Below are positions 45,594 to 63,411 of a DNA stretch of 64,000 nt, piece after piece. Numbering within the stretch: the first letter of the stretch is position 1; each line of letters begins with the position of its first letter. The DNA lies in assembly GCA_002716825.1 (NCBI GenBank), contig PBCC01000001.1, positions 13,612-77,611 on the forward strand. Direction: 5' to 3'. The notes under the pieces were generated by a model. That model did no database searches and was not told where the DNA came from. It was given only the letters and a program-made list of their open reading frames with translations. Source of the DNA: Halobacteriovorax sp. GTDB taxonomy: Bacteria > Bdellovibrionota > Bacteriovoracia > Bacteriovoracales > Bacteriovoracaceae. Both the position numbers and the translations under genes were made by a program.

Positions 45594-45944
45594 ATGAGTA
45601 TTAATAAAGTGATTCTAATAGGTCGACTTGGTGCCGACCCTGAGCTTCGCTATACATCAGAAGGGAATCCTGTTTGCAACCTTTCCGTTGCAACAAGTGA
45701 AAGATGGATTGATGATTCAGGGAATAAGCAAGAAAGAGTTGAATGGCATAGAGCTGTTGCATGGAATAATCTTGCCGAGAATTGTAACAAATATCTTACG
45801 AAAGGAAGAGAGGTTTACATCGAAGGTAAAATCCAAACAAGAAACTATGAGGACAAAGAAGGTGTCACAAAATACACAACTGAAATTGTTGCTCAGAAAG
45901 TTGAGTTTATTGGAGGGCAAGGCAAAGTAAACGAAGCTGCATAA
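45594..45944 (+). CDS. ssb: single-stranded DNA-binding protein
   Basis: A 116-residue SSB. It shows the OB-fold pattern MSINKVILIGRLGADPELRY, NLSVATSERW, VEWHRAVAWNNLAENC and YIEGKIQTRNYEDKEG. It ends soon after the OB domain and lacks the long linker and the acidic DDDIPF-type tip of chromosomal SSB, which is usual for phage and plasmid versions. It coats single-stranded DNA during element replication or transfer. GGAGG precedes the ATG. Confidence 0.93.
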   Translation: MSINKVILIGRLGADPELRYTSEGNPVCNLSVATSERWIDDSGNKQERVEWHRAVAWNNLAENCNKYLTKGREVYIEGKIQTRNYEDKEGVTKYTTEIVAQKVEFIGGQGKVNEAA

Positions 45945-46044
45945 AAAAAAGATCCAGTATAAGTAAAAAGCTGGAAAAGACTTAAAATCTTTTGTGGGCA
46001 AACCACATATCAAAAAGGATTTTATATGGAGAAATTTAGTTTAA

Positions 46045-46290
46045 ATGTATGACGATCAAGAGGATTGTTACTGTGATGAATATCGGTACAGGAGAAGACA
46101 ACCTGAGGGGATTACCCTCGAAGGTGTAGTTGCAACGACAGCACCTTTTCTTGTCAGATCATTACTGAAAAAACATCAGTCTTTAATGCTCGCCATTGCT
46201 TTGGCTGACGTGGCTATAGAGGTCCACAAACAGTACAAAGCAAAACGCCCCATGGGCGAGTTAGTTTTGTTGCATGGGGATTATTCTTAG
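46045..46290 (+). CDS. small unknown element protein
   Basis: An 81-residue protein with an acidic, tyrosine-rich start (MYDDQEDCYCDEYRYRRRQP) and a more hydrophobic second half. A leader ORF of eight codons (46026-46052) has AAGGA before it and its stop overlaps this ATG region, so translation may be coupled. The gene lies between ssb and a strong terminator. No family recognised. Confidence 0.45.
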   Translation: MYDDQEDCYCDEYRYRRRQPEGITLEGVVATTAPFLVRSLLKKHQSLMLAIALADVAIEVHKQYKAKRPMGELVLLHGDYS

Positions 46291-46315
46291 GGTTTAAACT
46301 CACATTTTCCAGCTT

Positions 46316-46358
46316 CCATCAGGGAGCGGGCATAGGGCCCGCTTCCCTTGATGGTTTT
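46316..46358 (+). terminator. strong rho-independent terminator
   Basis: A long stem from CCATC (46316) to GATGG (46354), with GGAGCGGGC/GGCCCGCTTCC pairing in the middle and a four-base loop ATAG, then TTTT. It ends the ssb transcript. Confidence 0.85.
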
Positions 46359-46389
46359 ATTAACAATCATTCCACATAGGAGGAATTTT

Positions 46390-46686
46390 ATGGTTACTGC
46401 AACGAAGAGGAAGTCGTCGATTCAAAACTCGACAGAAAATGAAACATCATTCTTTAGAGAGGGTGGGCTTTTAACAATTACAGGCACAGCTTTTGACGTT
46501 GTTGGGAAAATTGGATTAGCAATCGGTATTACTGGAGTATTGCTGTATTTATTCTCAGCAATTGAAGCATTTATAGGACTTGGTGTCTTATATACGGGTG
46601 CAAGTGTAATTGCTGCAGGTCTAGCTAGTTCCATTGTCGCCAACAAGTTAAATTCTGGATTTTGGTTACAAGGCGCATTCGCCTAA
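46390..46686 (+). CDS. small membrane protein, unknown
   Basis: A protein of 98 residues from the ATG at 46390, with AGGAGG before it; the frame is open from 46348. After a polar N-terminus of about 30 residues there are two hydrophobic helices (FDVVGKIGLAIGITGVLLYL and GLGVLYTGASVIAAGLASS). One of several small membrane proteins in this stretch of the element. No family recognised. Confidence 0.5.
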   Translation: MVTATKRKSSIQNSTENETSFFREGGLLTITGTAFDVVGKIGLAIGITGVLLYLFSAIEAFIGLGVLYTGASVIAAGLASSIVANKLNSGFWLQGAFA

Positions 46687-46695
46687 TAAATTGAG

Positions 46696-46725
46696 TAGGT
46701 GCCGTTAGGATTAGCGGCACCTCTT
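46696..46725 (+). terminator. hairpin terminator
   Basis: Eight-pair stem AGGTGCCG/CGGCACCT with a ten-base loop, then TCTTT. The T run is short, so termination may be partial. Confidence 0.6.
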
Positions 46726-46742
46726 TAGCTGGAGGTATAGAG

Positions 46743-47162
46743 ATGTGTATTAAAACCTTAAGAGATAAAAATAAAGTTGTTGGTCTTTCTATTAACGGGA
46801 AGAACTTTAAACTTGATCGCCAGATTTGTCATGCTCTTGGAATAGAAGAGCTGAAGAGCAAGATAGATGCAAAAGCAATGTCCAGTAGCGCCTTACAAGC
46901 CAAAAACTTGTTAATGGAGAAAGTTTTCAGGGGAAGCTCTGTACTGATGGATATTGAAGTTAGCTATAGCGAAGCAAATGAAATTAATTCAAAAACTGCA
47001 AAAGTTGAATTCAAAAACAAATTTGCTGAAATAAGCGAAGAGAAGAGACTTGAGTTTACTGAATTGCTGGAGAACTTTATTGATTCTTTAAATATGGCAT
47101 CGAAAAGTCATTGTGAAGAAGTTGAAAAAGCAATGAGAGAAATTATTAAAAGAGATAACTAG
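46743..47162 (+). CDS. unknown 139-residue element protein
   Basis: No family recognised. The protein is helical and charged, with a possible DNA-binding helix near the start (LDRQICHALGIEELKSK) and no membrane segment. GGAGG precedes the ATG by seven bases. It starts the run of small genes that ends with the resolvase at 47712. Confidence 0.5.
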   Translation: MCIKTLRDKNKVVGLSINGKNFKLDRQICHALGIEELKSKIDAKAMSSSALQAKNLLMEKVFRGSSVLMDIEVSYSEANEINSKTAKVEFKNKFAEISEEKRLEFTELLENFIDSLNMASKSHCEEVEKAMREIIKRDN

Positions 47163-47171
47163 GAGCCTAGA

Positions 47172-47426
47172 ATGGAAACCAGTACATGTAGAAACATTTC
47201 ACTATTACTTATTGGTACATCTTTATCAATCCTCGGTTCAGTATTCGTGTTTAGTGGGAGCCTGAGCTGGCTTGGATGGAGCATATTCTTTCCTTTAATG
47301 GCAGGAGGACTTGGTCTCGTTGCAACAAGTGCAAATGAGTTAGTAAGTGTTATTCATCCTCAAAATAAATGGAGGTCAGCATGTCTATTGATTCAAAAAA
47401 TATTGCCAAGAAAAATGACCTTCTAA
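47172..47426 (+). CDS. small two-helix membrane protein, unknown
   Basis: An 84-residue protein with two hydrophobic helices (ISLLLIGTSLSILGSVFVF and IFFPLMAGGLGLVATSA) and a basic C-terminus. AGGAG precedes the ATG. Its 3' end overlaps the next gene by 46 bases, which suggests translational coupling. No family recognised. Confidence 0.5.
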   Translation: METSTCRNISLLLIGTSLSILGSVFVFSGSLSWLGWSIFFPLMAGGLGLVATSANELVSVIHPQNKWRSACLLIQKILPRKMTF

Positions 47427-47704
47427 GAACAACCTTTTTAACAGGTAAAGTTGTACTTAGTTTGTCTGTAAGAGAGTCAGTAGACCGAGAACAAGTTATT
47501 ACAGCCGTCAGAGAGTTTGACGACTTTACAGAAGATAATGACCCTTATGGGGAACATGACTGTGGAATGGTTTGTGTTAACGAGGATAACTACATTTTTA
47601 AAATTGATTACTATAATAAAGATTATTCAATGGGAGTTGATCCTTACGATGTTGATGTGGTTGTCCGTAGAGTCCTAACCATAATGCATTCATCTGAGTA
47701 TTGA
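47381..47704 (+). CDS. unknown 107-residue element protein
   Basis: The frame opens at 47369, but the ATG at 47381 (MSIDSKN) has GGAGG just before it and is preferred. The protein is acidic with a hydrophobic strand-helix middle, FDDFTEDNDPYGEHDCGM and a tyrosine-rich end. No family recognised. It lies directly before the resolvase. Confidence 0.5.
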   Translation: MSIDSKNIAKKNDLLRTTFLTGKVVLSLSVRESVDREQVITAVREFDDFTEDNDPYGEHDCGMVCVNEDNYIFKIDYYNKDYSMGVDPYDVDVVVRRVLTIMHSSEY

Positions 47705-47711
47705 GGTGGGT

Positions 47712-48308
47712 ATGGAGAAAAAAGTTGGATTATATCTAAGAACATCAACCGACAGGCAACAGACTGGCTTAGAGGCGCAAAAAAGAGCACTTCTTGAATA
47801 TTGCAAAAGAAATAATATTTCAAACTTCCTAGTTTATTCTGATAGCGGTGTCTCAGGAACTAAAGAGAGTCGACCAAGCCTGAATTCTTTAATGAATGAT
47901 ATTGAAGGCGGAAAGATTAAATCTGTTGTTGTTTATAGTTTTTCAAGATTTGCCAGAAGTGTTTCTCATCTTATGCAAGCAATGGAATTATTCAAAAAGT
48001 TAAATGTTGATTTTGTCAGCCTCACAGAGAACATTGATACTAAAACACCTATTGGAAAAGCAATGTTTGTGATCATCTCGGCAATCTCAGCATTAGAAAG
48101 AGACTTGATTGCAGAGAGAGTTCGCAATGGACTCAAGAATGCCAAAGCGAAAGGTAAACAGATTGGGAGACCAGAGACCGTTCCGGTTGATTCTATTATT
48201 TCATTAAGAGCAAAAGGCTTAACCTATAGGCAAATTGCTGAAGTTTTGAATGTTGGTCACGGCAGTATTACCAGAGCAATGAAATTGCACCAAAAGAAAA
48301 GCACTTAA
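47712..48308 (+). CDS. small serine resolvase/invertase
   Basis: A 198-residue serine recombinase from the ATG at 47712 (the GTG at 47706 is the longer choice). Catalytic Ser12 is in GLYLRTSTDRQ; VVVYSFSRFARS and ALERDLIAERVR are the other hallmarks, and the C-terminal helix-turn-helix is TYRQIAEVLNVGHGSITRAM. Probably resolves element multimers or inverts a segment. It is different from the large recombinase at 38211. GAGG lies upstream. Confidence 0.9.
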   Translation: MEKKVGLYLRTSTDRQQTGLEAQKRALLEYCKRNNISNFLVYSDSGVSGTKESRPSLNSLMNDIEGGKIKSVVVYSFSRFARSVSHLMQAMELFKKLNVDFVSLTENIDTKTPIGKAMFVIISAISALERDLIAERVRNGLKNAKAKGKQIGRPETVPVDSIISLRAKGLTYRQIAEVLNVGHGSITRAMKLHQKKST

Positions 48309-52438: not shown

Positions 52439-52465
52439 GTAGTTTGGCCGAAAGGCCAATACTAC
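52439..52465. repeat. hairpin repeat, copy 2
   Basis: GTAGTTTGGCC GAAA GGCCAATACTAC, a stem of about ten pairs with a GNRA tetraloop, nearly the same as the copy at 51734. It lies between converging genes and touches the last stop of the methyltransferase frame, so it may also act as a terminator. Confidence 0.7.
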
Positions 52466-53289
52466 AATGGTTTTCTTAGACCTGTAAGAATTTCAAAAGC
52501 GAGCCTTGCCTGATTTGGAACTACTGCATTCCCAAGGGCTTTAATTGAGTCCAATTGGTTGGGAATCCCATGAACCACTCTAGCCACCTCGGGTTCAGTT
52601 TTCCACGTATAGGTCGTGGCATCAATTGTCCGTTTTGACCTATTAATTGAACGTAACGAGCGAGACTTAAGCTCCCTTCTGTCCCTTTTCTGTTTACTTT
52701 TCTCCATGAATTTTTCCTTTTAAAATATGTATCTTGCTCACAAAGAATGGAGCCAGCAGTTGCATCAGTTTTCATCAGTGTTGGATACCGCAAGCATGAA
52801 CCACCTTCGTCTGAGGTGAGAAGCTCCAACTCCGGTAGCAGGTATAACCGTCCATTCAAAACAATAGCCGAGTTGGGTAAACGTTGTGCATACTTCCTTG
52901 AGTGACTTTCCAACGATTCCGTGGACATTTTCCAAGAATACAAATTTGGGTCGTATTTCATTAACAAGTCTTGTGAGCTCAAAGAATAGGATGCTATCTT
53001 TTCCCGCCAGACCTTTTCCCATTGGGTTGTGGGTTGATAGTTGCTGACATGGACTTCCTCCGTAAATGATATCGATGCCTTCTGGAAGGGTATCACTGGA
53101 GAGTGATCTAATATTATCCCAGATTGGTGCATTTGATAGGAGCCCATCAGACATCCTTGAGAGTAATACTGATTGGCAATATTTATCTTTTTCGCAGTAA
53201 GCGATTGTTTCGATGTAAGGTGATAATGCGAGGGTATCACCCCCGATTCCTGAGAACAAACTAAGTCCTCGTAGTTTAGGTAAATCCAC
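52462..53289 (-). pseudogene. C5-cytosine DNA methyltransferase, interrupted by stops
   Basis: A Dcm-type methyltransferase in one frame, cut by TGA (52765-52767), TGA (52738-52740) and TAA (52720-52722). Part A (52765-53289, GTG start) has motif I LSLFSGIGGDTLAL, motif IV GGSPCQQLS with the catalytic Cys, motif VI FVFLENVHGI and motif VIII GASHLRRRWFMLAV. Part B (52462-52707) has ARVVHGIPNQLDSIKALGNA then VVPNQ, motif X. The middle target-recognition part is too short. Activity is probably lost unless a shift joins frames. Confidence 0.75.
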
Positions 53290-53291
53290 AT
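52521..53291 (-). CDS. overlapping alternative-frame ORF, phage DNA-MTase-associated type
   Basis: A 256-codon open frame that overlaps the interrupted methyltransferase in another frame. Its ATG (53291) and the methyltransferase GTG (53289) share one AGGAG ribosome site. Its sequence has pieces I recall from phage proteins next to Dcm genes: DLLMKYDPNLYSWKMS, LNGRLYLLPELELLT, and LNPRWLEWFMGFPTNWTQLK at the end. Since this frame has no stops while the other has three, it may be the one kept. It may instead be a by-product of base use. Confidence 0.45.
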   Translation of the reverse strand: MWIYLNYEDLVCSQESGVIPSHYHLTSKQSLTAKKINIANQYYSQGCLMGSYQMHQSGIILDHSPVIPFQKASISFTEEVHVSNYQPTTQWEKVWREKIASYSLSSQDLLMKYDPNLYSWKMSTESLESHSRKYAQRLPNSAIVLNGRLYLLPELELLTSDEGGSCLRYPTLMKTDATAGSILCEQDTYFKRKNSWRKVNRKGTEGSLSLARYVQLIGQNGQLMPRPIRGKLNPRWLEWFMGFPTNWTQLKPLGMQ

Positions 53292-53325
53292 TTAAACTCC
53301 TATTGATAGTAAATTGTTTAAACTC

Positions 53326-54435
53326 TTAAAAAGGAATGTCATCAAATGAAAAGACATTTACTTCTATCTTAAGAGGAGAAGGTACTATTTCATTTTTAAT
53401 GCATTTGAAGGAACGGTTTCTATACTCTGGTACAGACTTCTTGAGAATTCTAATTGCTCTAGAAATAACTCTACGTTGCTGTTGTTTATTCTTCCAAATA
53501 GTTCCTGGTGGGAATGTTTGGAATAATGGGTAACCGTATTTTGTTTTTGGAGAGTTGACTCCAATAACACGTGAAAACGTACTTGAAGCAAAAGTGTAGC
53601 GTCTCTCATAAGGGTACTTGCAGATAAATTGCTTAAAGTTTTTGAGATATTTATCGATAGTCTTATTGCGAATACTCGTTTTTAAAGCACCATTCTTATT
53701 TCGATAGATGATTAATCCTAGTCGCTCAAGTACCTTGGTGGAATTTGCGTGAGTATTTGATACAACTAAACCTTTTTTGTTATCTAGAGAATGGATTTTT
53801 ATCAAGAGCAAATTATTTAGAAAACTATAGATATTTGTTAACAAAACAATATGACTCATTCTATCTGCATAGAAAACGAAGTCATCAACATAGAGCTGAA
53901 ATTGGTAATTTATTCCAAGTATATGTTTTCCTAAAAAGTTGAATGTCTTTGAAATATTAAATTGAGTTAGTTTAAAGATTGCCTCAGTTGATGACAGTCC
54001 AGGTCTTAAACCGAGAAGTTTTGTCTTTTGAAAAACTTCAGTACTTCGCAATGGAGAGATGTAAAGCACTACTAGCGGAACAAAAGTCTTTATTATTAGC
54101 AAAGGATTAAATAGAAAGTTCCATATAAGTAACAAAAAGATATTCGAAGAATAATAAGCGTCTTTTATGTCTCCATACCCAACCCACTTAAAACTATTAG
54201 TGAATTTGATATCATTAAGACTTTGGTTGAAACGATTACTATGTATTAGTTCAAGACGGTGTTCATTCGCTATGTGATGTCTTATTGCACTTGCGGTTCT
54301 TTTGTCCAATTCTTTATGTTCTTCTTGAGATATGGAGATTTCACGCTTTTTTCCACTAATATTAGGAGTGATAATCTTCACGCTGTCATTATAGGCTTCT
54401 AGGTATTTTCTAATGGTTATAAATGGATTGTTCAT
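53326..54435 (-). CDS. divergent reverse transcriptase
   Basis: A 369-residue protein with reverse transcriptase landmarks: GDIKDAYYSS (residues 88-97) as the first catalytic Asp region, GLRPGLSSTEAI (142-153) in place of the usual PQG segment, and the catalytic YVDDFVFYAD (182-191). RLGLIIYRN (238-246) fits the following hydrophobic motif. It has about 130 residues of basic C-terminal domain. No maturase, integrase or retron VTG motif was seen. It is 36 bases before the methyltransferase remnant on the same strand. Probably a defence-related or unknown-group RT. Confidence 0.8.
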   Translation of the reverse strand: MNNPFITIRKYLEAYNDSVKIITPNISGKKREISISQEEHKELDKRTASAIRHHIANEHRLELIHSNRFNQSLNDIKFTNSFKWVGYGDIKDAYYSSNIFLLLIWNFLFNPLLIIKTFVPLVVLYISPLRSTEVFQKTKLLGLRPGLSSTEAIFKLTQFNISKTFNFLGKHILGINYQFQLYVDDFVFYADRMSHIVLLTNIYSFLNNLLLIKIHSLDNKKGLVVSNTHANSTKVLERLGLIIYRNKNGALKTSIRNKTIDKYLKNFKQFICKYPYERRYTFASSTFSRVIGVNSPKTKYGYPLFQTFPPGTIWKNKQQQRRVISRAIRILKKSVPEYRNRSFKCIKNEIVPSPLKIEVNVFSFDDIPF

Positions 54436-55565: not shown

Positions 55566-58500
55566 ATGTCAGAATATGATTTTTTTGAAAAACCAATATT
55601 AAATTCACCATATGAATACCCGTCGCGTCACTGGGAAATTGATGAAAGTGGGCAGCCAACACAAAAAGTTATTGAAAAAAGAAGAATTGTTAAATTCATT
55701 ACGCCAATACCTAAACCTAGAAAGAAAAAAGGTGTTGAAGTTCAGACACAGTTTGATTTAGGGGGTGATGAAGCAGGAGGTCTCTCAAGAGATGGTCAAC
55801 TATATGACCCAACTCCCATTATAAATGAATTAAGAACGCATATTGATAAATGGAGAGAAATTTCTGATCCGAATAAGTGGAAAGTGACTCCTGAAACTGC
55901 AAGATTATTGCAACATTGGCGTCATCATAATTTCCAATCGATAAGACCTTTTTTTTGCCAGGTAGAAGCAGTGGAGACAGCAATTTGGCTAACTGAGGTA
56001 GCCCCAACTCTTGGGAAAAAAGGGCAGTCTTTTCTTGATCACCTCGAAAGGGCCAACCTAGATGCTAACCCAGAAATAATGAGACTAGCTTTAAAGCTTG
56101 CAACAGGTGCAGGCAAGACTACCGTTATGGCAATGTTGATTGCATGGCAAACAATAAACTCCGTGAGAAGACCTCAAAGCAAGAAGTTTACTAAAGGATT
56201 TCTAATTGTTGCTCCGGGATTAACGATTAAAGACCGGCTAAGAGTTTTACAACCCAATGACCCTGATAGTTACTTTGAGTCGAGAGAACTAATACCAAAT
56301 GATTTGATCCATGAGCTTAAGAAAGCAAAAATCGTCATCACAAATTATCATGCATTTAAGTTAAGAGAAAAAATTGAACTATCTAAAGGTGGACGCTCTT
56401 TACTTCAGGGACGTGGTGAAGACCTCAACACTCTTGAGACAGAAGGACAAATGCTCCAAAGAGTTATTCCTGAATTGATGGGAATGAAAAATATATTAGT
56501 AATAAATGATGAGGCTCATCACTGTTATAGAGAGAAACCAGATGATCCTGAAGAAGAAAATCTAAAGGGTGATGATCGAAAGGAAGCAGAGAAGAACAAA
56601 GAAGCTGCTCGTCTTTGGATTTCAGGAATAGAGGCTGCCAATAGAAAAATTGGTGTAGCACGAGTAATTGATTTGTCAGCAACGCCATTTTTCCTATCAG
56701 GGTCTGGCTATGCTGAAGGAACCTTATTCCCCTGGACGATGAGTGACTTCTCCCTAATGGATGCAATTGAAAGTGGAATCGTAAAACTTCCACGAGTTCC
56801 TGTTGCTGATAATATTCCTGGTGAGGAAATGCCTAAGTTCAGGGTCCTTTGGGAACATATTGGAAAAAGGATGCCAAAGAAAGCCAGAGGATCTTCTGGT
56901 GACCTTGACCCATTAAGTATTCCAACAGAATTGCAAACAGCGCTATCTGCTTTATATGGTCATTATGAAAAAACATTTAATCTTTGGCAGGAGTCAGGGA
57001 TAAAGGTGCCACCATGCTTTATAGTCGTATGCAATAATACTTCTACTTCAAAGCTTGTTTATGATTATATCTCAGGGTTTAATCGAAAAAATAATGATGG
57101 CTCTGAGCAATTAGAAATGGGGCGTTTAAAACTTTTTCGTAATCATGATGAACATGGAAATCCACTTGCAAGACCAAGAACTCTACTGATTGACTCTCAA
57201 CAATTAGAATCGGGTGACGCTCTTGATAAAAACTTTAGAGATATGGCGAGTGATGAAATTGAGAGATTTAAAAGAGAAATTATTGAAAGAACCGGTGATA
57301 GAAAGCAAGCTGAAAACTTAAATGAAGCTGATCTTCTTCGAGAAGTTATGAATACAGTCGGGCGTGAAGGAAGGCTTGGCGAATCTATTAGATGTGTTGT
57401 TTCTGTTTCGATGTTAACGGAAGGTTGGGATACAAATACGGTTACGCATGTTTTAGGTGTTAGAGCTTTTGGTACTCAATTGCTATGTGAACAAGTAATT
57501 GGTAGGGCCCTTAGAAGGCAATCATATGAATTAAATGAAGATGGAAGATTTAATGTTGAATATGCAGACGTTCTTGGCATTCCATTCGATTTTACAGCAA
57601 AGCCTGTTGTTTCTAAACCTCAGCCTCCTAGAGAAACAATACACGTTAAAGCCATAAGTCCAGAGCGAGATAGTTTAGAGATAACTTTTCCAAGAGTAGC
57701 AGGTTATAGAGTTGAACTTCCTGAGGAAAGGCTCGATGCCGAGTTTAATAAAGATTCGATTCTTGAACTGACTCCAGACTTGGTAGGACCCTCAAAAACA
57801 AATAATGAGGGAATTATTGGAGAGGGAGTAAGTTTAGATCTAGAGCACTTGGATAAAGTTAGGAGCTCTACCTTGTTGTTTAACTTAACTCAAAGGTTGC
57901 TTTATACAAAATGGAGAGACCCTGGAGAAGAACCGAAACTTCATTTATTTGGACAGTTAAAAAGAGTTACTCGGCAATGGCTTGATAGCTGCTTAGTTTG
58001 CAAGGGAGATACATTTCCTGCGCAGCTTATGTATCAAGAGTTGGCTGACATGGCATGCAATAAGATAACCGCAGGTATAACAAGAAAGCTTATTGGTGAA
58101 AAACCAATCAAAGCTATTTTAGATTCATTTAATCCAACAGGCTCTACAATGTCTGTTAGTTTTAATACCTCTAAGACGAATAGATGGGAAACGGACTCTC
58201 GTAAGAGTCATGTAAACTGGGCTATTTTGGACAGTGATTGGGAGGGAGAATTTTGCAGAGTTGTAGAAGGTCACCCCAAAGTCGTGTCATATGTGAAAAA
58301 TCAAAGTATGGGATTTGAAGTTCCCTATCGTTACGGATCTACTGTTCGTAAATATATCCCCGATTTTATAGTTCGTATTGATGATGGTCATGGCGAAGAA
58401 GATCTACTTAACCTAATTGTGGAGATAAAGGGTTACCGGCGTGAAGATGCAAAAGAGAAGAAAACGACAATGGAGCAATACTGGGTTCCCGGTGTGAATA

Positions 58501-58613
58501 ATTCAAATAAGTTTGGGCGGTGGGCTTTCGTGGAATTTAATGAAGTATTCGAGTTTGATAATGAGTTTGATAATTTAATTAGAAAATATACTAAGAATGG
58601 TGAAGAATTATGA
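55566..58613 (+). CDS. type III-like restriction helicase-nuclease (Res)
   Basis: A 1015-residue superfamily 2 helicase. Walker A LATGAGKTTVMA (179-186), DEAH at 315-318, SAT at 371-373, motif V/VI LTEGWDTNTVTHVLG and QVIGRALRRQ near 650. The C-terminal part carries a PD-(D/E)xK nuclease: Pro932-Asp933 in YIPDFIVRI and Glu953-Ile-Lys955 in IVEIKGY. This is the Res type of restriction systems, near the BPTD_3080 family as I recall. It probably moves along DNA and cuts. Its stop overlaps the methyltransferase start by four bases (ATGA). Confidence 0.9.
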   Translation: MSEYDFFEKPILNSPYEYPSRHWEIDESGQPTQKVIEKRRIVKFITPIPKPRKKKGVEVQTQFDLGGDEAGGLSRDGQLYDPTPIINELRTHIDKWREISDPNKWKVTPETARLLQHWRHHNFQSIRPFFCQVEAVETAIWLTEVAPTLGKKGQSFLDHLERANLDANPEIMRLALKLATGAGKTTVMAMLIAWQTINSVRRPQSKKFTKGFLIVAPGLTIKDRLRVLQPNDPDSYFESRELIPNDLIHELKKAKIVITNYHAFKLREKIELSKGGRSLLQGRGEDLNTLETEGQMLQRVIPELMGMKNILVINDEAHHCYREKPDDPEEENLKGDDRKEAEKNKEAARLWISGIEAANRKIGVARVIDLSATPFFLSGSGYAEGTLFPWTMSDFSLMDAIESGIVKLPRVPVADNIPGEEMPKFRVLWEHIGKRMPKKARGSSGDLDPLSIPTELQTALSALYGHYEKTFNLWQESGIKVPPCFIVVCNNTSTSKLVYDYISGFNRKNNDGSEQLEMGRLKLFRNHDEHGNPLARPRTLLIDSQQLESGDALDKNFRDMASDEIERFKREIIERTGDRKQAENLNEADLLREVMNTVGREGRLGESIRCVVSVSMLTEGWDTNTVTHVLGVRAFGTQLLCEQVIGRALRRQSYELNEDGRFNVEYADVLGIPFDFTAKPVVSKPQPPRETIHVKAISPERDSLEITFPRVAGYRVELPEERLDAEFNKDSILELTPDLVGPSKTNNEGIIGEGVSLDLEHLDKVRSSTLLFNLTQRLLYTKWRDPGEEPKLHLFGQLKRVTRQWLDSCLVCKGDTFPAQLMYQELADMACNKITAGITRKLIGEKPIKAILDSFNPTGSTMSVSFNTSKTNRWETDSRKSHVNWAILDSDWEGEFCRVVEGHPKVVSYVKNQSMGFEVPYRYGSTVRKYIPDFIVRIDDGHGEEDLLNLIVEIKGYRREDAKEKKTTMEQYWVPGVNNSNKFGRWAFVEFNEVFEFDNEFDNLIRKYTKNGEEL

Positions 58614-61345
58614 GACAGAAAATTGATAACATTACGCATGAAGATGCGACTAGAAAAAATATCCCAACTGCGGAGCTGCAATCAATAATGCAGAAGGGGG
58701 ATCTAACACCTGTTCAAGTTGCTTATATGCGACGGAATGCCGATCTAGATCCTCAGTTGGTTTGGAGAGGTAAGGATCTTGTAAATTCATCAGATTTAGT
58801 TTCTTATGCACCACCTTTGTACATACAAGAGAAAGTACACCCTAAGGTGTTAATTGATAGTTTGGCGAGATATTCAAACAAAGATATTGGCGAACAGGTT
58901 GATCTATTTGATGACTTCAATGGTTTACCTGATGAAGATGCTAAGACTGAGTTTTACAAGCACGAAGGGCATTGGACAAACCGGATGATTTTAGGTGATG
59001 GCTTGCAAGTGATGGTGTCACTTGCTGAGCGTGAATCCTTAAGAGGAAAGGTTCAGTCTATATTTATCGATCCTCCATATGGAATTAAGTTCAATTCTAA
59101 CTTTCAGTGGTCAACGACGTCTCTGGATGTAAAAGACGGAAAAATGGACCATATTACCCGTGAGCCGGAGCAAGTAAAAGCTTTCAGAGATACATGGAGA
59201 GACGGTATTCATTCATACTTAAGTTATTTACGTGACAGGGTTACAGTCGCCAGAGATCTTCTTCATGACACGGGCTCTATTTTTGTACAGATTGGAGATG
59301 AGAATGTACATCTTGTTAGATCATTACTAGATGAGATATTCGGTAGAGATAGCTTTGTAAGTCAAATCTCTTTTGTTAAGGCTGGTGCACTTGGTGCAAC
59401 GGGGTTACCAAGACGCCTTGATTATGTTCTTTGGTATTCTAAAAATCAAGGGAGTTATAAATATAGAAAATTTCTTATTGAAAAAGATGTATCGGAACGA
59501 GGGGCTTACAATAGAATCGTTAATGACGATTATTCATTAAGACCTCTGTCTAAAGATGAAAAACAAGATCCCAAGTTGATAGATGTTACAAAGCTATGTC
59601 GAACAGTTTCTTTTACAAAGCCAGGACCTGGAGCTCGTTATCCATTAAAGTTCAGGGGAAGTGAGTATCATCCAGGTAGGCGCTGGTGGGGCTTCCCTGA
59701 GGAGAGCGCTCAAAAGGTAATTAGGGCTGGTCGACTAGTACAGACTGGAAAAAGTGTGGAAAGTTTACGATATTGGAATGACTATGCTGCTCAGGAGATT
59801 TCAAACTTGTGGACTGATACTGGCTCAGGTAGCGGTATGAAAAAAGTTTATGTTGTTCAAACGAACGTAGAAGTTATCAAACGCTGCATACTAATGTCTA
59901 CCGACCCCGGAGACCTCGTACTTGATCCAACTTGTGGCTCAGGAACAACAGCATATGTAGCAGAGCAATGGGGGCGAAGATGGATAACAATTGATACTTC
60001 AAGAGTTGCTCTAGCGTTAGCGCGATCTAGAATAATGGGAGCAAAGTTTCCATACTATCTACTTTCTGATAGTGAAGAGGGTGCAAAGAAAGAATCAGAA
60101 TTATCAATGCAGGACTTTCAGCCAAGGAAAACATTTAGAAATATAATGCATGGATTTGTCTATAAAAGGGTTCCTCGTATAACTCTTAAAGCTATTACTC
60201 AGAACCATGAAATTGATAACATATGTGATAAATTTGAACCCTTGATAAAGGCTCGATTAGACTCATTTAACAAATTGAATAAATCTAAATTAAATGAATG
60301 GGAATTGCCCTCTGAGGCTTCGTGTGATTGGTCTTCGAAATCTGTTGAAGAATACAAAGAATTGAAAAAACTTCAAATCCAGAAGCAAAATCAAATTGAT
60401 AATGCAATTAACGCACGTGCAAGCTTTGAACATCTTTATGACCAGCCATACGAGGATAATAGTAGAGTAAGAGTTTCTGGTCCGTTTACTGTAGAGTCTA
60501 TATCTCCACACAAAAGTCTACCTTTAGATGAGAATGATGAAATTATTAATTCTAAAACAAATGGCATTACAAATGGAGAACAGGATTTTGTTTCAATTAT
60601 TATGGAGAATATTAAGAGTGCAGGAGTTCAGCAAGTAGCAAAGAATGACAAGATTGAATTTGAATCAATTGCCCCGTGGCCCGGAGAGTTTATTTGTGCA
60701 GACGGAGTTTATTACGAGGGAGATAAACGTAAAAGGGCTGCGATCTTAATAGGACCAGAGTTTGGAACCTTGTCTCGACCAGATCTAGTTTCAGCAGCTA
60801 GAGAGGCTGCCGAGGCTGACTTTGATGCTCTAATTACATTTGCGTTTAATTATGATGCACACTCTTCTGAGTTTAGTAGGCTTGGACGAATTCCAGTGTT
60901 GAAAGCGAGAATGAACGCTGACTTGCATATGGCAGATGATCTGAAAAATACTGGGAAAGGTAACTTGTTTGTCATATTTGGAGAGCCAGATATAGATATA
61001 ATAGACCTTGGGGAAACGTTGAAGGTTAAAGTAAATGGCGTGGATATATTTGACCCTTCTTCTGGTGAAGTACGTAGCGATAGCGTTGATGGTATAGCTT
61101 GCTGGTTTATAGACACAAATTACAATGAAGAAAGTTTCTTTGTGAGGCACGCATACTTTATTGGTGCGAATGATCCATATGATGCTCTGAAAAAAACTTT
61201 GCGTAATGAGATAAATGAAGAGGCGTGGGAGTCTGTCAACAGTGATATTTCGCAGGAGTTTTACAAACCAACAACAGGCAGGATTGCAGTTAAAGTGATA
61301 AACCACTTAGGCGATGAAGTCATGAAAGTCTACAAGGTTGATTAA
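58610..61345 (+). CDS. type III-like DNA methyltransferase (Mod)
   Basis: A 911-residue beta-class methyltransferase. Motif IV IFIDPPYGIK is at 152-160 and motif I LVLDPTCGSGTTAYVAEQWG near 440, the order found in Mod proteins (adenine or N4-cytosine). The first 120 residues and the last 350 are extra and probably carry target recognition or partner contact. It should protect host sites from the Res partner. The gene overlaps Res by four bases and the next gene by one (TAATG). Confidence 0.9.
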   Translation: MRQKIDNITHEDATRKNIPTAELQSIMQKGDLTPVQVAYMRRNADLDPQLVWRGKDLVNSSDLVSYAPPLYIQEKVHPKVLIDSLARYSNKDIGEQVDLFDDFNGLPDEDAKTEFYKHEGHWTNRMILGDGLQVMVSLAERESLRGKVQSIFIDPPYGIKFNSNFQWSTTSLDVKDGKMDHITREPEQVKAFRDTWRDGIHSYLSYLRDRVTVARDLLHDTGSIFVQIGDENVHLVRSLLDEIFGRDSFVSQISFVKAGALGATGLPRRLDYVLWYSKNQGSYKYRKFLIEKDVSERGAYNRIVNDDYSLRPLSKDEKQDPKLIDVTKLCRTVSFTKPGPGARYPLKFRGSEYHPGRRWWGFPEESAQKVIRAGRLVQTGKSVESLRYWNDYAAQEISNLWTDTGSGSGMKKVYVVQTNVEVIKRCILMSTDPGDLVLDPTCGSGTTAYVAEQWGRRWITIDTSRVALALARSRIMGAKFPYYLLSDSEEGAKKESELSMQDFQPRKTFRNIMHGFVYKRVPRITLKAITQNHEIDNICDKFEPLIKARLDSFNKLNKSKLNEWELPSEASCDWSSKSVEEYKELKKLQIQKQNQIDNAINARASFEHLYDQPYEDNSRVRVSGPFTVESISPHKSLPLDENDEIINSKTNGITNGEQDFVSIIMENIKSAGVQQVAKNDKIEFESIAPWPGEFICADGVYYEGDKRKRAAILIGPEFGTLSRPDLVSAAREAAEADFDALITFAFNYDAHSSEFSRLGRIPVLKARMNADLHMADDLKNTGKGNLFVIFGEPDIDIIDLGETLKVKVNGVDIFDPSSGEVRSDSVDGIACWFIDTNYNEESFFVRHAYFIGANDPYDALKKTLRNEINEEAWESVNSDISQEFYKPTTGRIAVKVINHLGDEVMKVYKVD

Positions 61346-63411
61346 TGGAATTTCGAATTTCAGATACATTTACCTCTAGTCTCGGGAAGTTGACTAACGA
61401 TGAGCAAAAGGCTGTTAAAACAACTTCATTTGACCTTCAGGTGAACCCTGCAAATCCAGGTCTGCAGTTTCATAGAATAGAAAAATCAAAAGATGATAAT
61501 TTTTGGTCAATAAGAGTAAGCAGAGATATTCGAGTTATAGTTCATAAGACTAACTCAAGCTTAATGCTTTGTTATGTTGATCACCATGACAAGGCATATG
61601 AGTGGGCAAGCCGAAGGAAGATTGACAAGCATCCTGTTACGGGGGCTGCACAGCTCGTTGAAGTTAGAGAGTCAATAAAAGAAATTGTAATACCTAGGTA
61701 TATTGAAAAAGAAACTAATGTTACAAAGCCTCCACTATTTGAGTCTTACGATGATAGCTATCTTTTAGGTTTTGGAATCCCTTCTGATTGGCTTGAAGAT
61801 GTAAAACTGGCTCATGAAGATAATTTATTCTCAATTTTAGAACATCTCCCAGCTGAAGCATCTGAGGCATTGCTCGAAATTGCTACAGGTGGGACGCCGC
61901 AAAGCCAAGTGCCCGTAGCTGTTGAAGATCCTTTTGAACATCCAGATGCCCAAAGACGTTTTAAAACGGTAGAAACATCAGAAGAACTACAGAGAGCATT
62001 GGATTACCCTTGGGAGAAATGGACAATCTTTCTTCATCCAAGCCAATCTGATTTAGTTGAGAAAACATATAATGGTCCCGCTCGTATTTCTGGATCAGCA
62101 GGAACTGGAAAGACTATAGTCGCTCTTCATCGCGCAGTTTTTTTAGTTAAAAGCAATGATGAATGCAGGGTTTTATTAACAACATTTTCTGAAACTCTGG
62201 CAAATGCATTAAGAGTCAGGTTAAAAAGGCTTATTGGAAATGAACCAAAACTCGGAGATCGGATTGAGGTTCATTCCATGCGCGATATTGGAGAACGTCT
62301 TTTTAAAAGAGTTAACTCAGATAAACGCGTTCTCTCGCAGCTCGAAGAGAAAGAGCTTGTTTTCTCTATCTCTAACAAAATAGATCATCCATTTAGCAAC
62401 GGATTTATATATAGCGAATGGTCCAATATTGTTGATTCATGGAGAGTTAAGGATTGGGATGATTATAAGAATGTAAAGCGACTAGGAAGAAAAAAAAGAT
62501 TAGCTGAAACTCAACGCAAGATTGTCTGGGGTGTATGCTTTGTAATTATTAAAGCTCTAGAAGATTTAAATGCGATAACCTTATCTGAGATGTATAGCTT
62601 AGTCTCAGATACCGTTGAAGGTTTCAAGAACAAACCGTTTGAATATATTGTTGTAGATGAATGCCAAGACCTAAGTGTGGCCCAGCTAAGGTTTTTAGCC
62701 TCACTTGGAAGAAATGAGACTGATAGCCTCTTTCTCGCTGGTGATTTGGGGCAAAGAATTTTTCAGCAACCATTTTCATGGAAATCATTAGGAATTGATA
62801 TACGGGGAAGATCACAAACACTGAGGGTGAATTACCGTACTTCTCAGGAAATCAGATCTAGAGCTGATCATCTTTTGCCTGATGAGATAACTGATGTCGA
62901 TGGTAATAGTGAATCACGATTAAATACGGTATCGATGTTCAAAGGCGAACCGCCCCTATTGAAAATATTTAATGATGAGAAGTCTGAATCAAGTTTTGTG
63001 AGTGAACAGATAAATGAACTTGTTGCCAAAGGTTATAAACCTCACGAGATCGGTATTTTCGTAAGGACAGTATCACAAAGTATTCGAGCAATAGAGTCCG
63101 TAAACAAGTCGAATTTAAATTTTTCAATACTAGATGAAAGCTTAGATATTAAACCTAATCATCTTTCAATCGGAACAATGCACTTGGCTAAGGGATTAGA
63201 GTTTCGAGCGGTTTTTGTAATGTGTTGTGATGATGAGGTTATACCCTTGCAATCAAGGATTGAGTCAGTTTCAGATGAGTCTGACCTAGAGGAAGTTTAC
63301 AATACAGAACGACACTTACTTTATGTTGCTTGTACTAGGGCAAGAGACTATTTAGCGATTACGGCGACTGATCCAGAGTCGGAGTTCTTAGATGACTTTA
63401 ATATGAAATAA
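61345..63411 (+). CDS. RelE-like domain fused to UvrD-family helicase
   Basis: A 688-residue fusion. Residues 1-92 match the RelE/ParE fold: NPANPGLQFHRIEKS, FWSIRVSRDIRVIVHK, CYVDHHDKAYEWA. From about 228 a superfamily 1 helicase follows: Walker A GSAGTGKT (250-257), IVVDECQDLS, GDLGQRIFQQPFSW, LRVNYRTSQEIRSRA, GTMHLAKGLEF and LYVACTRARDY. The RelE part may sense or bind nucleic acid rather than act as a toxin. It is joined to the methyltransferase gene by TAATG. Confidence 0.9.
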   Translation: MEFRISDTFTSSLGKLTNDEQKAVKTTSFDLQVNPANPGLQFHRIEKSKDDNFWSIRVSRDIRVIVHKTNSSLMLCYVDHHDKAYEWASRRKIDKHPVTGAAQLVEVRESIKEIVIPRYIEKETNVTKPPLFESYDDSYLLGFGIPSDWLEDVKLAHEDNLFSILEHLPAEASEALLEIATGGTPQSQVPVAVEDPFEHPDAQRRFKTVETSEELQRALDYPWEKWTIFLHPSQSDLVEKTYNGPARISGSAGTGKTIVALHRAVFLVKSNDECRVLLTTFSETLANALRVRLKRLIGNEPKLGDRIEVHSMRDIGERLFKRVNSDKRVLSQLEEKELVFSISNKIDHPFSNGFIYSEWSNIVDSWRVKDWDDYKNVKRLGRKKRLAETQRKIVWGVCFVIIKALEDLNAITLSEMYSLVSDTVEGFKNKPFEYIVVDECQDLSVAQLRFLASLGRNETDSLFLAGDLGQRIFQQPFSWKSLGIDIRGRSQTLRVNYRTSQEIRSRADHLLPDEITDVDGNSESRLNTVSMFKGEPPLLKIFNDEKSESSFVSEQINELVAKGYKPHEIGIFVRTVSQSIRAIESVNKSNLNFSILDESLDIKPNHLSIGTMHLAKGLEFRAVFVMCCDDEVIPLQSRIESVSDESDLEEVYNTERHLLYVACTRARDYLAITATDPESEFLDDFNMK

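Follow-up and report, generated by a model that had tools for sequence, protein, structure and literature searches.

A DNA methyltransferase (Dcm) gene broken in its own frame, yet crossed by a second long frame without stops, raises the question of whether the locus is a dead enzyme gene with a fortuitous ORF or a place where two proteins are encoded in the same DNA. Analysis of the window (the whole stretch of 64,000 nucleotides that contains the locus) confirmed on the minus strand that three stops interrupt the Dcm frame while a 256-codon frame is open across the same DNA.

Two frames at the window locus

The catalytic part of the Dcm frame (alpha-N, 52765..53289, minus) comprises 174 codons from GTG 53289, and from its residues motifs I (FSGIGG), IV (SPCQ), VI (ENV), and VIII (HLRRR) can be read; it matches the Pfam family DNA_methylase (PF00145) with an E value of 4.4e-32 and phrog_363 with 7e-40. 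Downstream lies a linker (52720..52767, minus) with the three in-frame stops (52767-52765, 52740-52738, and 52722-52720), and beyond it an 81-codon ORF (alpha-C, 52462..52707, minus) that has its own ATG, contains KALGNAVVP, carries motif X (TEPEVARVVHGIPNQLDSIKALGNAVVP), and matches phrog_32758 (3.9e-9). One continuous frame through motif X is therefore absent in the window alpha, with the stops falling between motifs VIII and X. Because the frame is identical on both sides of the stops, the three breaks are nonsense codons and not a frameshift. A Shine-Dalgarno-like AAGGA (52715..52719, minus) lies 7 nt before ATG 52707; a restart with such a site before motif X arises in 27% of shuffles, and we regard the AAGGA as weak evidence for a motif-X restart.

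The second ORF (P0001, 52521..53291, minus) lies in the +1 frame, begins with ATG, and has no internal stop. It contains YDPNLYSWKMS, one TRD-type module (YPTLMKTDATAGSI...GSLSLARYV), and the motif LNPRWLEWFMGFPTNW, and its end, WFMGFPTNWTQLKPLGMQ, is indeed the shifted reading of VVHGIPNQLDSIKALGNA. In 1000 synonymous shuffles of the window Dcm the alternative frame held 9.9 stops on average and never fewer than 4, compared with none observed. A family model built without P0001 gave P0001 94.4 bits, whereas the best of 1000 shuffles reached 58.7 and their mean was 29.9; the PHROG 1008 profile also matched P0001 (E 1.7e-8), mainly over residues 228-249. The absence of stops is significant over nested codons 49-256 (0 observed versus 8.05 expected), whereas the openness of codons 2-48, the extension up to the shared ribosome site, has a chance probability of 0.10. 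Since this extension upstream of ATG 53147 is not significant, ATG 53147 is the likelier nested start in the window compared with ATG 53291; it is preceded at 6 nt by an AAGGA resembling a Shine-Dalgarno sequence (53154..53158, minus) and occupies the position typical of the family. The original prediction had both frames starting at one ribosome site, and an AGGAG (53297..53301, minus) does precede both ATG 53291 and GTG 53289, but the likeliest translated form of the nested gene is the shorter 52521..53147 (minus).

Selection on both frames among relatives

A tblastn search of phages with P0001 gave no matches at 1e-5, and leads appeared when E was relaxed to 10; a scan with the window alpha-N found no close relatives. 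In nine phage or viral loci inspected by hand, the Dcm is intact and an open +1 frame with shared motifs runs across its C-terminal half. Scanning IMG/VR for the pattern of the alternative motif, and adding loci already collected, yielded 120 ORFs that carry the motif and have a Dcm upstream; for 119 of them the motif is in a frame other than that of Dcm, nearly always +1. Between motif VIII and the end motif, 102 loci hold no +1 stops compared with 182.5 expected from synonymous Dcm shuffles, while the third frame, as a control in the same sample, holds 784 compared with 783.9 expected. When the nested protein is instead held fixed, the Dcm frame has 8 stops where 378 are expected and is open in 102 of 105 loci (7.3 expected); all 8 stops are confined to loci L104 and L126 and the window.

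A second, unbiased sample consisted of 106 viral Dcm genes picked by a main-frame motif only. Here we found a single +1 stop (164.1 expected), a +1 frame open in 105 of the 106 genes (26.6 expected), and the same C-terminal alternative motif in 105 of 106. The same pattern in bacterial genomes gave 109 dual cases, 2 in the same frame, and none without a Dcm, with 7 at contig ends. The depletion of stops in each frame, together with the unbiased sample and the bacterial genomes, indicates that both frames are under selection. Judged from these sequences, the +1 frame is a true second gene nested within the phage-type Dcm gene, with relatives in hundreds of phages and prophages.

Nested residues are conserved beyond the synonymous null from about Dcm column 59-65, just before motif IV, to the end (z to -27), and at that same place a start codon with a Shine-Dalgarno sequence occurs in 96 of 139 loci, compared with 18.6 ± 4.3 expected. 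Ratios of dN/dS, which are pairwise substitution counts from non-independent pairs with divergence uncorrected for multiple hits, change along the gene: upstream of the nested start they are 1.01-1.14 in the alternative frame and 0.17-0.19 in the main frame, in the overlap with motifs IV-VIII 0.39-0.70 and 0.18-0.32, and in the TRD region (motif VIII to the end motif) 0.19-0.35 and 0.71-1.28. By these ratios, purifying selection on the nested frame is strong in the TRD region, where the Dcm frame is nearly neutral. This contrast suggests that the nested frame is the one that encodes the recognition region, the Dcm frame there being a spacer that must only stay open. The dual-coding family originally proposed is thus strongly supported by stop depletion, conservation, Shine-Dalgarno enrichment, and dN/dS, the last with nested values well below 1 in the TRD region and near 1 upstream of the nested start. 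Shuffled Dcm frames still score on the alternative model (mean 29.9 bits), so that the motif partly follows from the Dcm protein, but it is hardly credible that Dcm protein sequence and codon bias alone leave the +1 frame open, with an ordinary dead methyltransferase in the window, because stop depletion, conservation, and Shine-Dalgarno enrichment exceed those of synonymous shuffles with a third-frame control and the nested frame is under purifying selection where the control region lies near 1.

The family had been placed beside phage Dcm genes; it is a real family, but its members lie inside those genes. PHROG 1008 (329 positions, labelled 'DNA methyltransferase') matches 85 of 85 nested proteins, at best with 8e-74, and on these profile matches is the nested-protein family, so that its label hides the fact that these proteins are the nested partner and not the catalytic chain. 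As a family the nested proteins have no match in Pfam or PDB. In the open-licence literature we did not find the phage-wide Dcm overlap described, although one such nested gene is entered in the annotation of Paenibacillus phage Shelly as 'g55 internal gene'. Tandem copies also occur: two nested Dcm genes follow one another in L068, and L094 has a duplicated Dcm C-terminus.

Second-frame stops beside an intact methyltransferase were seen only in conventional Dcms, including those of the window's own bacterial family, in which the TRD and motif IX are in the main frame and the +1 frame has stops. Because their TRD and motif IX are in the main frame, these genes delimit the nested class and do not speak against it. 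Conventional single-chain enzymes of the Dcm/M.HhaI type (PF00145) share motifs I-VIII and X with the Dcm-frame product of the nested class and differ in that one frame encodes the TRD and motif IX together with the catalytic part.

A putative methyltransferase in two chains

We propose, with a probability of roughly 0.8, that the locus encodes a nested two-subunit m5C DNA methyltransferase. The main frame would give alpha, the AdoMet-binding and catalytic part (motifs I-VIII) joined to motif X by a spacer without a TRD; the +1 frame would give beta, a separate gene with its own ribosome site and a start just before motif IV, supplying the recognition region and motif IX. By analogy with M.EcoHK31I, the two chains would come together as one enzyme, both assembly and methylation being what we infer. 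Beta most likely encodes the DNA-recognition half of the Dcm enzyme. The alpha profile aligns to M.HhaI only at 12-178 and 300-319 (motif X). In an AlphaFold model of a minimal alpha member, residues 1-165 have high confidence and 168-221 a pLDDT below 50, so that the spacer between motifs VIII and X is predicted to be disordered; one beta protein modelled alone had a pLDDT of 62 and no confident fold. Because the alpha spacer is near-neutral and predicted to be disordered while the nested frame is constrained, alpha appears to be without a TRD and motif IX, which beta would carry.

Among single-chain actinophage Dcms, L327 has an in-frame TRD/IX that the nested model matches at 2.3e-12, and LNPxWVEWLMGFP of beta fits the motif IX pattern and matches the in-frame motif IX of actinophage Dcms. 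Profile-profile comparison of beta with the C-halves of conventional Dcms was not significant, so the identity of motif IX rests on the pattern L.P.{7}GFP, on position, and on the actinophage link. A shift-derived protein had been suggested, and the nested C-half does have homologues that are read in frame, namely the TRD and motif IX of the single-chain actinophage Dcms, but this does not set the direction of change. A frameshift origin of 'EPxVGRVADGVP' from 'LNPxWVEWLMGFP' is at most a candidate reading, because L126 and L202 carry both, standing in series.

Other layouts show the parts redistributed. In the window's bacterial family, L016:1498-2628 (minus) has a catalytic Dcm with motif X followed by a nested-type TRD and motif IX in a single frame, and matches P0001 167-250 with 31% identity (E 2.4e-8); two other members (L015/L317 and L318) keep an intact nested gene. 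The motif order of the L016 fusion is permuted. The alpha frame carries motif IX in L057 and L303; the beta frame carries motif X in L126 and L202, in which the Dcm frame past motif VIII is lost. The L016 fusion and the single-chain relatives with an in-frame TRD/IX support beta as the recognition part.

The two frames adjoin, and the offset between them is +1 in nearly every case, as would be expected if a programmed frameshift linked the catalytic part to the nested frame in one chain. We think this very unlikely, as beta is equipped with a start and a ribosome site of its own, as constraint on it sets in well before motif VIII, and as the ribosome would have to shift back again to read motif X.

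A stronger competitor, still improbable in our estimate, is that the nested protein is real yet outside the methyltransferase, an independent phage protein (for example a clamp-binding one) inside the Dcm gene. Near the nested start, 60 of 139 loci have Q..L[FWL] (3.7 expected), in variants such as QLTLF, QKDLF, and QMSLF, a motif that we take to resemble the sliding-clamp (beta-clamp) binding motif. Moreover, Streptococcus and Lactococcus phage Dcms that are complete, with their own TRD, IX, and X, also hold a nested +1 ORF (L331:1292-1777, L332:1280-1774, L333:1349-1777; also L334-L413) with 0 stops compared with 135.6 expected and an SN/SS of 0.34 inside and 0.95 downstream. This ORF matches PHROG 16143 and ends in SLSDILEEQVDERYFLS; its N-half is the same as that of beta and its C-half is without TRD or IX. 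Retention of a selected N-half by complete Dcms indicates that the N-half of beta has a role beyond supplying a TRD. Against a wholly independent protein stand the selection pattern in the TRD region, an alpha without a TRD, the in-frame homologues and the fusion, and the swapping of motifs IX and X between chains. A more speculative extension, which we hold to be rather unlikely, is that many phage Dcms, as a class, almost universally need a nested partner gene with a clamp-binding-like start. This gene would come in two C-terminal types, one with TRD plus IX and the other, in complete Dcms, with SLSDILEE...YFLS, and the window would hold a natural three-chain enzyme whose catalytic chain is split in the linker.

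The closest known system to the proposed two-chain enzyme is M.EcoHK31I, in which the large gene also encodes the small chain, in an alternative frame; the likeness is in the division of motifs over two chains and not drawn from sequence comparison. Both traits recur here, the small chain in an alternative frame within the large gene in the family, and a large chain with I-VIII and X but without IX (in the window as separate ORFs). In PMC3404938 (citing Lee et al. 1995), M.EcoHK31I is a YGGCCR m5C methyltransferase with motifs I-VIII and X on the large chain and motif IX on the small one, and its predicted TRD is placed on the large chain; in the phage nested genes, by contrast, the TRD-like part is selected in the nested frame, and the window differs further in that its alpha is cut in two. 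The same source describes M.AquI as a split m5C methyltransferase with motifs I-VIII on one chain and the recognition part and motif IX on the other. L126 and L202 share this layout, with motif X on beta, whereas the typical nested pair keeps motif X on alpha and shares DNA over most of the length of beta. The nested class is real and selected, and probably a novel form of the known two-chain C5-methyltransferases; what surprises is the generality of the nesting, masked by the label 'DNA methyltransferase'.

If this reading is true, a very common phage gene annotated as plain Dcm is two genes, PHROG 1008 and 16143 are mislabelled as DNA methyltransferases, and anyone who predicts methylation specificity or assays the enzyme from only the main frame is working with a protein that lacks the recognition domain. 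DNA phages would also have in it a long same-strand overlap that is very widespread, with natural fusions, motif transfers, and breaks that illustrate how overlapping genes merge and separate.

State of the window copy and its neighbourhood

In the window, alpha is cut in the neutral spacer into catalytic and motif-X pieces, with beta whole. The original prediction that the enzyme had been lost goes beyond the evidence: the stops lie only in the near-neutral linker, and the catalytic and motif-X parts still avoid them. With the nested protein fixed, alpha-N has 0 stops compared with 6.8 expected, and alpha outside the linker avoids stops section by section (P 0.05; 0 versus 4.5, P 0.003; and for the motif-X piece 0 versus 2.6, P 0.04), whereas the linker, with 3 observed and 1.8 expected, has no stop avoidance. 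We nevertheless give an even chance to alpha being, in the window only, a pseudogene beside which beta persists for another function or merely because too little time has passed. In its favour are the three stops, the rarity of a broken alpha (3 of the 105 loci in one sample), and the loss of four near-invariant alpha residues (S.AG to STHN; A4 R213 to Q and R216 to S), which is consistent with decay. The stop avoidance outside the linker argues against it, as do intact PCQ and ENV and the restart ATG with a Shine-Dalgarno-like site before motif X; GNAVVP is kept as well. On balance we lean towards an alpha that recently began to decay, and an active three-piece enzyme, which would fit as well, seems somewhat less likely.

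On the same strand, 35 nt upstream of the Dcm locus, is a reverse-transcriptase-like gene (53326..54435, minus; RVT_1 1e-4, YVDD), for which PADLOC gave no match. Adjoining the locus at 55566-63411 are type III restriction and modification genes and then a UvrD-like helicase gene, and the SSB-like and resolvase genes lying at 45594-48308 point to a mobile element.
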